DNA of 51,670 nt. Source: Acidimicrobiia bacterium. Lineage in GTDB: Bacteria; Actinomycetota; Acidimicrobiia; Spongiisociales; UBA5794. The stretch's first letter is position 1; each line of letters opens with the position of its first letter. The translations under genes and the position numbers were made by a program. The notes beneath the pieces were generated by a model. It had not been told where the DNA came from, made no database searches, and saw nothing but the letters and a program-made list of their open reading frames with translations. The stretch lies in the NCBI GenBank assembly GCA_003235475.1, contig QJWC01000066.1, positions 1 to 51,670 of the forward strand, given 5' to 3'. Below, piece by piece: positions 8,449 to 13,364 of the stretch.

Positions 8449-8793
8449 CTAGCCGTTCATCTGCTCTTCGCCGACGGTCGGGAGCTCCTCTGGCATCAAC
8501 GGGTTCGGCCGGTGGGCGTGGTACGTCCTCAGGCGATCGTCGTCGCACTCCGAACACAGCGTAACCGGCCGTGTTCCGACCACGGAGAGCTGCGTTCCCC
8601 GACTCCGCTCCACCATCGCTAGCGGGACTGTCTGCAGATCGGACGACCCGCACCGCGTGCACTCATCGCGCCCGCCACGCAGCCACTGCGATCCGCACGC
8701 GCCGCATGTCAGGGCGATTCGCCCGTCAGCCTCTCCCCTACCTGTGAGATCGGCGGACTCACCGCACGAAAGGCACGCAATGTCGAGTGCCAT
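8449..8793 (-). CDS. Zinc-ribbon hypothetical protein
   Basis: 114 residues from ATG 8793, which overlaps the upstream stop codon by one base (TGATG), so translation is probably coupled. Four CxxC-type pairs are visible (CLSC, CGAC, CTRC, CSEC), enough for two zinc ribbons. No catalytic motif and no membrane segment. The C-terminus (TYHAHRPNPLMPEELP) is probably flexible. Function unknown; a nucleic-acid or protein-binding role is a guess. Confidence 0.7.
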   Translation of the reverse strand: MALDIACLSCGESADLTGRGEADGRIALTCGACGSQWLRGGRDECTRCGSSDLQTVPLAMVERSRGTQLSVVGTRPVTLCSECDDDRLRTYHAHRPNPLMPEELPTVGEEQMNG

Positions 8794-9404
8794 CAACCCG
8801 AACCGAGCGCCTGCGCGGTCGCAGCGGCAATGGCCCACGCTCGACCCACATCGACGTGCGACGCGCCCGCTTTGCGGTCGACGCCCGATACAAGGCTCAC
8901 GACCACGATCTCGGTGCCGTCCGTCGTGACGTCGTGCACGGCGACCTCGGCGAGCCGGCCAGATCCGAGCAACTGGGCGACAACGGTCACCACAGCCCGG
9001 TCGAAAGGCATCGCGTCACCGATGCGAACCGATCGACGTTCACCAAGAGCATCTTGTGCCTCAACCGATACGCCATCAGCCGTCTCCACCACCGCGACGC
9101 TTCGAAGCCCTGACACCACAGAACTCGGCGAGCCCTGGACGTGAAGAGGACTCGGTTCGTCGCCGTTGGCATCGATGATCTCGGCGAGATTCCGCCCAAG
9201 CCCACCTCGGCGCCGTACAGGTCCCTGCGCGGCGGCCCCTGACGATCCGAGGACGGCGTCCACCTCGCGCTGCACCTCCGCGGCGTCGCGGGTTCCATCG
9301 AGGTAGACGCGCGCGATCGGAACGGAGTTCGTACCGAGCTCGACGTCGACCGACGCCACGCCCGCAATGGACTCGAGTTGTTCGGAAAGGTTGTTCGCCA
9401 GCAC
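8793..9404 (-). CDS. Hypothetical protein
   Basis: 203 residues from GTG 9404, chosen because GAGGGAG lies 7 nt upstream; an earlier GTG (9431) has no ribosome site. The N-terminus (LSEQLESIAGVASVDVELGTNSVPIARVYL) resembles a small alpha/beta domain, then a linker with RRRGG, then a second beta-rich part (SVAVVETADGVSVEAQDALGERRSVRIGD). It ends with a hydrophobic Ala-rich helix. No named family recognised. Co-transcribed with the zinc-ribbon gene. Confidence 0.65.
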   Translation of the reverse strand: MLANNLSEQLESIAGVASVDVELGTNSVPIARVYLDGTRDAAEVQREVDAVLGSSGAAAQGPVRRRGGLGRNLAEIIDANGDEPSPLHVQGSPSSVVSGLRSVAVVETADGVSVEAQDALGERRSVRIGDAMPFDRAVVTVVAQLLGSGRLAEVAVHDVTTDGTEIVVVSLVSGVDRKAGASHVDVGRAWAIAAATAQALGSG

Positions 9405-9450
9405 GCAGGTTCTCCCTCGCGTGCCGAACACTAACGGTGGTCGGTGCGCC

Positions 9451-9877: not shown

Positions 9878-11848
9878 CTATTCCCCCGACGACTCGCCAG
9901 GAGTCGTGAACACGGTCGTCACCGTCGCCGCAAGGATGGAGAGGTCGAGGCGAGTCGACTGTTCGGCCACGTACCGCTCGTCCCACGCCGTCCTCTCCGC
10001 GAGTGCGATCTCGTCCCTTCCGTGTACCTGCGCCATTCCCGTGACGCCAGGCTTGACCGTGAACCTTGGGTTGTCGAGCCCTATGAGTTCAGCTTCTGCC
10101 CGGACGAGTGGCCTCGGGCCAACGAGCGACATCGATCCCTTCAAGACGTTCCAGAGGTTCGGCAGCTCGTCGATCGACCAGCGCCGCAATCGGCTTCCGA
10201 CACGCGTGATGCGCGGGTCCTCCTCGATCTTGATCGTGTACTCGTCGTCGTAGCTGCCAGCCTCGCGGAGCCGCGCAAGGTGATCATGGAACACTTCTTC
10301 GTCGTGGTCGATCACCATCGTTCGGAGCTTGATCATCCAGAAGTCACGGCCACCTCGCCCGACGCGTTGCTGCCGGAAAACGGCGGGGCCTTTCGAATCG
10401 AGTCGCACCGCGATCGCCGCGACGACGAGCACGGGGAACAGCAGGACGAGCAGCACCATGGATCCGGCAATGTCGATCGACCGTTTCACCACGGCGTACC
10501 CGTGTGACGACGTGAGTTCATCTGCGTCCTTCACGAGCGCGGCCACCATGAGCGCGAGTAATGCGGCTGCCTCACCGACGAGGAAGGCAACCACGACGTG
10601 GAGTACGGGGTCGTCCATCCTGAAGAGCACCATCGCAATCGACGAGATGACCGCGACCGCCCATGCCATCGCGAGCCTGAGCGACTTGCCACCCGCGACC
10701 AAAATCTGCCCGATGAACAAGGCACCAGCAGCAAGCACGACTCCCGCACCGGCAAGCGCAGCGACGACCGTCTCTGGACGGAACCCGGCTCCGAAGGCGA
10801 CGCCCACGAGGGTCGGTCCCAGAAGAGCGCCAGCGAGTGCTCCGACAACAGCGAGGACGATCGATGCGATCGCAATGCCGCGTGCCCACGCTCGCAACTC
10901 CCTTCGCTCGCCCCGCGCCGCCATCTGTGTGAACGGCGGGAGAATGCGCGCGATCAGGTTGTAACCGAGTGTCAGCGGCGCCCGCGCGATCAAAAGCGTC
11001 GCGTACGTGATCGAGAACTGCGCTGCGGTTGCGCCGAGCCTCGACGCAACCAGTGGGCCTGCGAGCAACAGGGCCTGGGAGGCAGCTGCGGCCATCACCA
11101 AGCCCGTCAGGAGTCCGCGTTCCGACTCGACGTCGCGCTCCACAGCGCCCGCATGAGCCGGTTCGTTGGACCCCTTCCATGGGCGCCAGAAGAAGATGAC
11201 CAGAGGTCCTGCGATGTGCGCCCACGCAAACCCTGTGACGCTTGGTGCGGCAACAGCGACGACGAGCGCGACACCCACACGGAGCAGGGATGCGGCCGCC
11301 GACGAGTACCCGTAGGCGCGGAACCTTCGGAACCCTGCGAGATACCCTCGGCCGACCGCGAAGAAGAAGTGCACGAGCACGGTCAGCAGCATGAAGATCA
11401 CGAACTCGCGTCGCGACGTGAAATAGTCGTCGCCGGCAGCCGACACAACGAACACTGCGCCGGCGGTGGCGGAGAGCACGAGCGCGATCCCCCTCGCTGG
11501 GACCACCCAGCCTCGCATTCCGAATGTGAGCCGTCGGATCACGAACTGCTCGATGGGAAGCAGAACGATCACGAAGGCGAGGAAGTGCGCCGTGAGCAGC
11601 ACGCCGATCGGGGCGAACCCGTCCTCCCCGAGCGCCTGCCCACCGATGAACTGGTACACGTACGCGCCGACGCCCGCCACGAGGCTCCCGAGGACGATGT
11701 CGAGCGTGCCGTCGCTGCGCATATATGCGTAGCGGCCGCCGACCCCGCGTGACGGCGCGTCGCTCTCTTCGGGTATGTCGGATCGGTCCACAGCACTCCG
11801 GGCTCGGCGCAGAGAGAATACCGACGTGCCATACGGACTCCGTGCCAT
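9878..11848 (-). CDS. Fusion: polysaccharide flippase-like domain + initiating sugar phosphotransferase
   Basis: 656 residues from ATG 11848 (an alternative start, ATG 11722, is just before the first helix). Residues ~48-440 contain about 12 membrane helices and a Wzx/MurJ-like segment (YNLIARILPPFTQMAARGE). Residues ~454-650 are a bacterial sugar transferase: KRSIDIAG, one re-entrant helix, KLRTM (507-511), catalytic Asp560-Glu561 in SIDELPNLWNVLKGSMSLVGPRP, and PGVTGMAQVHGR (600-611). Usual family members have a short CoA_binding_3/four-helix N-terminus instead. Known function of the C-domain is to load a sugar-1-phosphate on undecaprenyl phosphate. Pairing start and export in one protein is inferred. 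Divergent from an LCP ligase. Confidence 0.85.
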   Translation of the reverse strand: MARSPYGTSVFSLRRARSAVDRSDIPEESDAPSRGVGGRYAYMRSDGTLDIVLGSLVAGVGAYVYQFIGGQALGEDGFAPIGVLLTAHFLAFVIVLLPIEQFVIRRLTFGMRGWVVPARGIALVLSATAGAVFVVSAAGDDYFTSRREFVIFMLLTVLVHFFFAVGRGYLAGFRRFRAYGYSSAAASLLRVGVALVVAVAAPSVTGFAWAHIAGPLVIFFWRPWKGSNEPAHAGAVERDVESERGLLTGLVMAAAASQALLLAGPLVASRLGATAAQFSITYATLLIARAPLTLGYNLIARILPPFTQMAARGERRELRAWARGIAIASIVLAVVGALAGALLGPTLVGVAFGAGFRPETVVAALAGAGVVLAAGALFIGQILVAGGKSLRLAMAWAVAVISSIAMVLFRMDDPVLHVVVAFLVGEAAALLALMVAALVKDADELTSSHGYAVVKRSIDIAGSMVLLVLLFPVLVVAAIAVRLDSKGPAVFRQQRVGRGGRDFWMIKLRTMVIDHDEEVFHDHLARLREAGSYDDEYTIKIEEDPRITRVGSRLRRWSIDELPNLWNVLKGSMSLVGPRPLVRAEAELIGLDNPRFTVKPGVTGMAQVHGRDEIALAERTAWDERYVAEQSTRLDLSILAATVTTVFTTPGESSGE

Positions 11849-11912
11849 CCGACGCGTGTTCGCGGCCCAGGAAGGACCTACTACATGGACCCTGTCTCTA
11901 CCATGGCGCTCA

Positions 11913-13364
11913 ATGTCTCACCCGGACACTGCTCCCTCTTCGTCCAAGCCCTGGCTCGCGGCCATCGCGTCCGCGATCGTGCCCGGGGTCGGCCAGTTCG
12001 TGGCTGGCGACTCCCGTCGTGGACGACTTCTGCTCCTGGTCGACGTCGCGATCCTCGTCGTCGTGTTCCTGTGGTTCAGGGACAAGACGCAGTTCCTGAT
12101 CCACTGGATCAAGCCAACATCGCTTGCGATCATGATGGTGGCGAACATCGTGCTGCTCGGGTACCGGCTGTGGGCAGCTGACGACGCTTACCGGATCGCC
12201 AAGCGTCGGACGGGTGAGTCCGGCGCGACGCCAGCAGGCGCCATGCTCGTCGCGGGCCTAGGGCTTGGGCTCTTGATTCTCCTCCCCCACGCGTGGTTCG
12301 GGTACATCGACATGAAGCAGTACGACCTCCTCACCTCCGTGTTTGTTGCATCCCCGACGACGACAACCACCACGGTCCCAAATACCCCGCCGCCGACGGA
12401 TTCGACCGGATCGACCGTTACGAGCTCGACGACATCGACAACACCTGCGCAGTCGCCATGGGATGGATTCGAGCGCCTCAACATCCTGCTCATCGGCGGC
12501 GACTTCGGTGAGGGGCGAACGGGCATTCGTACCGACACCATGATCACCGTATCGATCGACCCGGCGACGGGCGAGTCGGCGATGTTCTCGGTCCCCCGCA
12601 ACTGGACCCAGTCACCTCTTCCCGACGGAATGGGCATCTGGGACTGCAATTGCTATCCCGAGTTGATCAACGAGCTCTGGGTCGCGGGTGAGCGATGGCC
12701 GGACGCCTTCCCGGGGCCCGGCACGCCATCCGAGAACGCCGTGAAGGGGATCATCTCGGAGTTCCTCGGCATTCCTATCCACTACTACGCGATGGTCAAC
12801 CTCGACGGGTTCGTCGACGTCATCGACGCACTCGGGGGCGTCGAGATCTACGTTCCCTCACAGGTCATCGACGAGGAGTACCCGAGCGAGGACGGCAAGG
12901 GCACTGAACGGATCGTGATCGAGCCCGGTCTCCAGAAGATGGACGGCCACCTCGCCCTCGCGTATGCGCGCACGAGGCATCAGGACAGCGACTACTTCCG
13001 GATGAACCGCCAGCGGTGTGTGATCGAGGCCGTGATGCAGCAGGCAGATCCGGCGTCGCTTCTGCTCAACTTCGGCAAGTTCGTGGATGTCATCAAGCGG
13101 TCCATGACAACCGACATCCCGCTCGACACCCTCCCGAGCCTCGTGGAGCTGATGCCGAAGGTCGATCTCGAAAACGTCGTGTCCGTGCGATTCATCCCGC
13201 CGGAGTACCACCTGAAGTTCCGGGACGACGGTAAGGCCGGACGGGTGCCGAACATAGAACTCGTCCACGAGCACGTCGCCCTCGTCATCGCAGACCCGGA
13301 GCGCGCCGTGACAGAACTCGGCCTCAGCCAGCTCGACGACGTGTGTGGGGACCCGAACGCCTGA
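11913..13364 (+). CDS. LytR-CpsA-Psr (LCP) family cell-wall glycopolymer ligase
   Basis: 483 residues from ATG 11913 (TACCAT lies 8 nt upstream; the frame is open further 5' but overlaps the divergent gene). The N-terminus has a PGVGQF motif with about four membrane helices to ~residue 130, then a Thr/Pro-rich linker (~145-175), then an LCP domain: NILLIGGDFGEGRTGIRTDTMITVSIDP, SVPRN, HYYAMVNLDGFVDVIDALGGVEIYVP, and LAYARTRHQDSDYFRMNRQR with the conserved Arg residues. LCP enzymes move undecaprenyl-linked polymers onto peptidoglycan outside the membrane. Divergent neighbour to the flippase-phosphotransferase fusion. Confidence 0.9.
   Translation: MSHPDTAPSSSKPWLAAIASAIVPGVGQFVAGDSRRGRLLLLVDVAILVVVFLWFRDKTQFLIHWIKPTSLAIMMVANIVLLGYRLWAADDAYRIAKRRTGESGATPAGAMLVAGLGLGLLILLPHAWFGYIDMKQYDLLTSVFVASPTTTTTTVPNTPPPTDSTGSTVTSSTTSTTPAQSPWDGFERLNILLIGGDFGEGRTGIRTDTMITVSIDPATGESAMFSVPRNWTQSPLPDGMGIWDCNCYPELINELWVAGERWPDAFPGPGTPSENAVKGIISEFLGIPIHYYAMVNLDGFVDVIDALGGVEIYVPSQVIDEEYPSEDGKGTERIVIEPGLQKMDGHLALAYARTRHQDSDYFRMNRQRCVIEAVMQQADPASLLLNFGKFVDVIKRSMTTDIPLDTLPSLVELMPKVDLENVVSVRFIPPEYHLKFRDDGKAGRVPNIELVHEHVALVIADPERAVTELGLSQLDDVCGDPNA

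Follow-up and report, generated by a model that had tools for sequence, protein, structure and literature searches.

The window analysed here is the complete contig C96 (51,670 bases), one of 117 in a 2.14 Mb draft genome of an Acidimicrobiia bacterium. It carries a gene whose 656-residue product joins what is confidently modelled as a 12-helix transporter of the MOP superfamily to a monotopic phosphoglycosyl transferase (monoPGT), adjacent to a divergent gene for a LytR-CpsA-Psr (LCP) ligase. We consider it likely that this protein is a bifunctional enzyme-transporter which initiates and exports an undecaprenyl-PP-linked wall glycopolymer, with the LCP neighbour attaching the product. The three activities, the substrate and the order of steps are deduced from family membership, the anatomy and the linkage from direct observation. 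An earlier note, made from the letters of this DNA without database searches, had proposed the same combination of initiation, export and transfer by the neighbour; the fold, the conserved fusion and a near-universal LCP linkage now uphold its framework, and the activities continue to be read from families.

The fusion gene occupies positions 9878 to 11848 of the reverse strand, where it is the longest open reading frame and is uninterrupted, and the LCP gene runs divergently from 11775 to 13364 on the forward strand. When the longest starts are taken, the 5' ends of the two frames share 74 nt. Among 28 nearly full-length copies of the fusion, including that of the window, conservation begins at RYAYMRSDGT (residue 40), and in the LCP gene it begins at ATG 11913; since conserved sequence begins further in for both genes, one or both true starts probably lie downstream. 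The likely LCP translation start is ATG 11913, and that of the fusion probably falls within the first ∼40 codons.

The C-terminal half (residues ∼449–652; 9893 to 10504, reverse strand) was identified by PF02397, by fold and by invariant residues. The Pfam match spans residues 455–647 (2e-58) and covers positions 1–178 of the 179 in the profile; a TIGR03025 match overlaps the same domain and falls under that model's own cut-off. The earlier description of a complete sugar transferase domain was accurate to the level of its motifs, as KLRTM, D560-E561 and PGVTGMAQVHGR are invariant or nearly so across the 28 copies. The DX12P re-entrant helix (D459–P472), K507, R555, D560-E561 and R579 are invariant in all 28; they correspond to the active-site residues named for PglC and large monoPGTs (PMC12802240), with equivalences assigned by motif. 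Because the catalytic residues do not vary, the enzyme half is expected to be active. In Foldseek searches with a full-length model, this half matched PglC (8e37, 2.1e-9) and WbaP (8t53, 2.5e-6), and residues ∼450–650 are accordingly modelled as a complete monoPGT of the PglC/WbaP fold. Large monoPGTs are defined by a four-helix bundle and a cytoplasmic DUF (PMC10942596; PMC12802240); the fusion has neither and is therefore not a large monoPGT of the WbaP type.

The N-terminal ∼400 residues (MOP/Wzx-like domain, residues ∼41–438; 10535 to 11728, reverse strand) were assigned from AlphaFold2, Foldseek and the Pfam matches of relatives. A model built on a 29-sequence alignment is confident (pLDDT 87.3, pTM 0.87) and contains 12 long helices, bearing out the ∼12 hydrophobic helices, with a Wzx/MurJ-like segment, seen earlier. 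The structural comparison with MurJ and Wzx folds that had been suggested as a check returned, without exception, MOP transporters as the significant PDB neighbours: WzxE (9g9p, 1.1e-5, TM 0.60), then MurJ (6nc6, 2.3e-5), then MATE proteins; the N-terminal half of the full-length model likewise matched MATE, WzxE and MurJ. TM-scores of ∼0.60 fit the MOP superfamily, within which lipid flippases and MATE exporters are not told apart by fold matching. The window protein itself matched no flippase model in Pfam or NCBIfam, its PF02397 domain being the sole match. Among 34 aligned relatives, PF01943 (Polysacc_synt) matched five (best 1.6e-5), PF13440 matched one (1.3e-4) and MatE matched none. We favour a lipid flippase over a MATE exporter because of the gene neighbourhood and these Polysacc_synt matches. 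The even topology of 12 helices would place the C-terminal end of this domain on the side of the membrane where a monotopic PGT must enter.

A different view of the N-terminal half would be that it transports nothing and serves the PGT as a membrane scaffold or regulator, in the way that the four-helix bundle serves large monoPGTs such as WbaP. Helices also precede the catalytic domain in large monoPGTs (PMC10942596; PMC12802240), and flipping of a substrate by the fusion is itself predicted. However, the domain folds as an entire MOP bundle of 12 helices, and invariant columns are nearly as frequent in it (21%) as in the enzyme half (26%), with invariant arginines (R105, R167, R190 and R289) buried in helices 2, 4, 5 and 8, which argues against a degenerate anchor. 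The same domain moreover occurs without an attached monoPGT in LCP-linked operons, and a scaffold thus appears doubtful.

The LCP neighbour, recognised as such in the earlier note, matches PF03816 (3e-29; positions 1–148 of the 150 in the profile), with several hydrophobic segments upstream of the catalytic domain. The question had been raised whether the fused form always lies beside an LCP gene. It does so at 32 of 34 informative loci, a count in which five fusion copies end inside the gene at a contig end and a few assemblies supply two contigs; the adjacent LCP gene is absent at L074 and L082, so that the association holds nearly always rather than always. Orientation relative to the fusion was divergent at 28 loci, tandem at one (L059) and convergent at three (L038, L083 and L105), and a linkage kept despite changed gene order is stronger evidence than fixed synteny. 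On the other side of the fusion, a co-directional gene for a CoA_binding_2 protein (PF13380; 9451 to 9849, reverse strand) follows, as it does within ∼75 nt or with overlap at ∼22 loci of the window's own lineage, family f1. A third gene of conserved position and without a Pfam match (8793 to 9431, reverse strand) comes next, and the three probably form one operon in this lineage. A regulatory link between the CoA_binding_2 protein and the fusion is conceivable by analogy, since large monoPGTs have a cytoplasmic DUF that the fusion lacks. Near the LCP gene are also an Abhydrolase_9 membrane hydrolase (PF10081/PF15420; 13437 to 15617, forward strand) and an acyltransferase-domain protein (PF01553; 15605 to 16915, reverse strand), and similar-looking genes lie near the fusion at locus L054.

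Under the preferred reading, the PGT half would transfer a sugar 1-phosphate to undecaprenyl phosphate at the cytoplasmic leaflet, glycosyltransferases encoded elsewhere in the genome would extend the chain, and the N-terminal MOP half would flip the undecaprenyl-PP-linked glycan. A Wzy_C protein encoded on contig C7 may polymerise it, and the neighbouring LCP enzyme would join either the glycan itself or a polymer of it to peptidoglycan. A tentative extension is that priming and flipping are coupled, such that commitment of the scarce carrier lipid is tied to an available exporter; the flippase half might even receive the PGT product, and elongation would then either proceed on a fusion-bound intermediate or be skipped before LCP attachment.

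As stated in the earlier note, no glycosyltransferase or polymerase is nearby: PF00535, PF00534, PF04932 and PF00953 had no match anywhere on the window contig. From this it had been suggested that the product might be short or a single sugar, i.e. that undecaprenyl phosphate receives one sugar, which the same chain flips and the LCP enzyme passes directly to the wall without elongation, and a fusion could indeed pass a monosaccharide lipid straight to its flippase. The rest of the genome speaks against that suggestion, as five GT2 and six GT1 domain matches lie on other contigs together with the single Wzy_C protein. Unfused orthologues, in addition, adjoin a gene for an NDP-sugar short-chain dehydrogenase/reductase (SDR), accompanied in family f69 by a glycosyltransferase-like ORF (by eye). 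Proposed from the missing neighbours, a product without elongation is, in our estimation, quite unlikely. The same genome encodes, on contig C36 (locus L110, 4742 to 8738), a second PF02397 initiator of 432 residues beside a GT2 protein and an Amidase_2 protein that carries SLH domains. This block gives the genome a second glycan-initiation locus and hints at an SLH-anchored surface layer. At L041, in the same genus, an unfused MOP paralogue lies beside korAB-like genes in the same neighbourhood that holds the PGT-GT2-amidase block at L110; the window's genome yielded no MOP paralogue of this unfused kind.

The MOP half might instead be a lipid II flippase, in the role of MurJ, or a drug exporter joined to the PGT by chance, and MurJ and MATE structures do score about equal to WzxE in the fold search. 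Against this, a separate MurJ gene is present on contig C36 (7e-66), the MOP-family profile gave no alignment with that protein, and the window protein gave no PF03023 match; judged by these comparisons, the MOP half is not the cell's MurJ. With relatives that match Polysacc_synt models and not MatE, and a neighbourhood that is glycan-related, such a chance joining is very improbable.

The spread of the fusion was determined in 395 genomes of the class and by a profile search of genome contigs using the alignment of the fused subset. The same architecture was found in families f1, f3 and f5, all of one order of Acidimicrobiia. A further 27 copies keep the junction in frame, with 49–72% identity across it among the 28 nearly full-length sequences and a linker of 14–24 residues between the last MOP helix and the PGT helix. 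The union of flippase and transferase in one protein, as first noticed in the window, is therefore not an assembly error, which had been named as the finding's possible undoing; the named relatives examined are metagenome-assembled and the frame is broken in L071 and L078, but 28 aligned copies with an in-frame junction and a conserved linker region, some on contigs as long as 289 kb and 162 kb, leave a negligible probability for two genes joined by an assembly or annotation artefact. The interruptions (L071, L078 and L038) lie between or within the domains and are probably draft-assembly errors. Five loci (L053, L057, L071, L084 and L087) come from assemblies titled Acidobacteria or Armatimonadetes; their fused or partial genes nest among those of Acidimicrobiia, and the assemblies are likely mislabelled MAGs. 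In further orders of the class, sequences that looked like fusions (L100 and L101 among them) turned out to be large monoPGTs of the usual kind, whose alignments were weak across their own helices. In a sample of 297 genomes of the phylum, other families had MOP-domain relatives as well, all of them unfused.

The genes of unfused relatives have those of separate initiators as neighbours, and this supports the reading of flippase, initiator and ligase. In the sister family f2 (L037 and L048), the operon continues after the unfused orthologue with an NDP-sugar dehydratase/epimerase gene (PF16363/PF01370) and then one for a polytopic WecA-type PGT (PF00953), and an LCP gene faces it. A MOP-SDR-PF00953 cluster is also found in f69, another family of the phylum (L146), where the extra glycosyltransferase-like ORF lies between the SDR and PF00953 genes. 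At nine loci in members of the same order, an unfused MOP paralogue adjoins or lies near the gene for a separate 430-residue PF02397 enzyme (a tenth locus so labelled, L078, is a frame-broken fusion and not an unfused paralogue). Derivation of the fused PGT from these neighbouring 430-residue paralogues was considered and is unsupported by the PGT tree.

The fused monotopic enzyme seems to have replaced the non-homologous WecA-type initiator of the same LCP-linked pathway, which is still paired with the unfused flippase in relatives. This is suggested by the pairing of the unfused orthologue with PF00953 and by the single PF00953 gene in f1 fusion genomes (the window's own and the 16 further ones counted). 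The copy in the window's genome lies next to a MurF-like gene and is interpreted as MraY; two PF00953 genes are present in those f2 genomes that have the LCP cluster in its unfused form. Three f3 fusion genomes (G042, G086 and G074) retain a second PF00953, so the replacement is not universal and the pattern is clean in f1 only. We infer the direction of the replacement from these distributions. LCP-linked MOP domains cluster together in trees, which are compatible with either history: the fusion may have had a single origin followed by loss in f2, or it may have arisen repeatedly.

Fusions of monoPGTs to other pathway domains are already known as the Bi-PGT class (PMC10942596, citing O'Toole et al. 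2021). The window protein resembles them in that a second functional domain, recognised by its fold and by the Pfam matches of relatives, shares one chain with the monoPGT catalytic domain; it differs in its partner, an entire MOP flippase of 12 helices. The partners catalogued in 2021 are said to be sugar-modifying, glycosyltransferase, regulatory and polytopic-PGT domains. The literature searched, in which few subscription journals were represented, described no flippase partner, and on that coverage the MOP flippase adds a new partner to those known for monoPGTs. Large monoPGTs (WbaP, WcaJ and EpsZ) share with the fusion their N-terminal helices, a C-terminal PF02397 domain and the conserved catalytic residues; in the fusion, however, a 12-helix MOP domain replaces the four-helix bundle, no Rossmann/DUF domain is fused, and a separate gene for a small CoA-binding protein lies downstream. 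The O-unit flippases Wzx/WzxE (PF01943/PF13440) have the same MOP fold, twelve helices and conserved buried arginines, and, like them, the unfused relatives of the fusion's MOP domain adjoin initiating enzymes. The window protein, in contrast, is itself too distant in sequence for a match to these Pfam models, bears a catalytic domain and is linked to an LCP gene rather than to an O-antigen cluster. TagO/WecA-initiated secondary wall polymers attached by LCP enzymes likewise rely on an initiator, a flippase or exporter and an LCP ligase, but their initiator is a separate polytopic protein, whereas here a monotopic enzyme is covalently joined to the flippase.

In lipid-linked glycan assembly, the first membrane-committed step and export normally reside on separate proteins, whose coordination is needed to keep undecaprenyl phosphate from being caught in dead-end intermediates (for a review of sequestration, see PMC12826051). 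The natural fusion described here provides a fixed 1:1 system in which a physical coupling of initiation to flipping can be put to the test. Furthermore, the apparent exchange of a polytopic for a fused monotopic initiator beside the same LCP ligase would place two unrelated enzyme superfamilies in one pathway of Actinobacteria. Lastly, the fusion locus, which belongs to a group of uncultured actinobacteria, indicates a predicted wall polymer in Acidimicrobiia.
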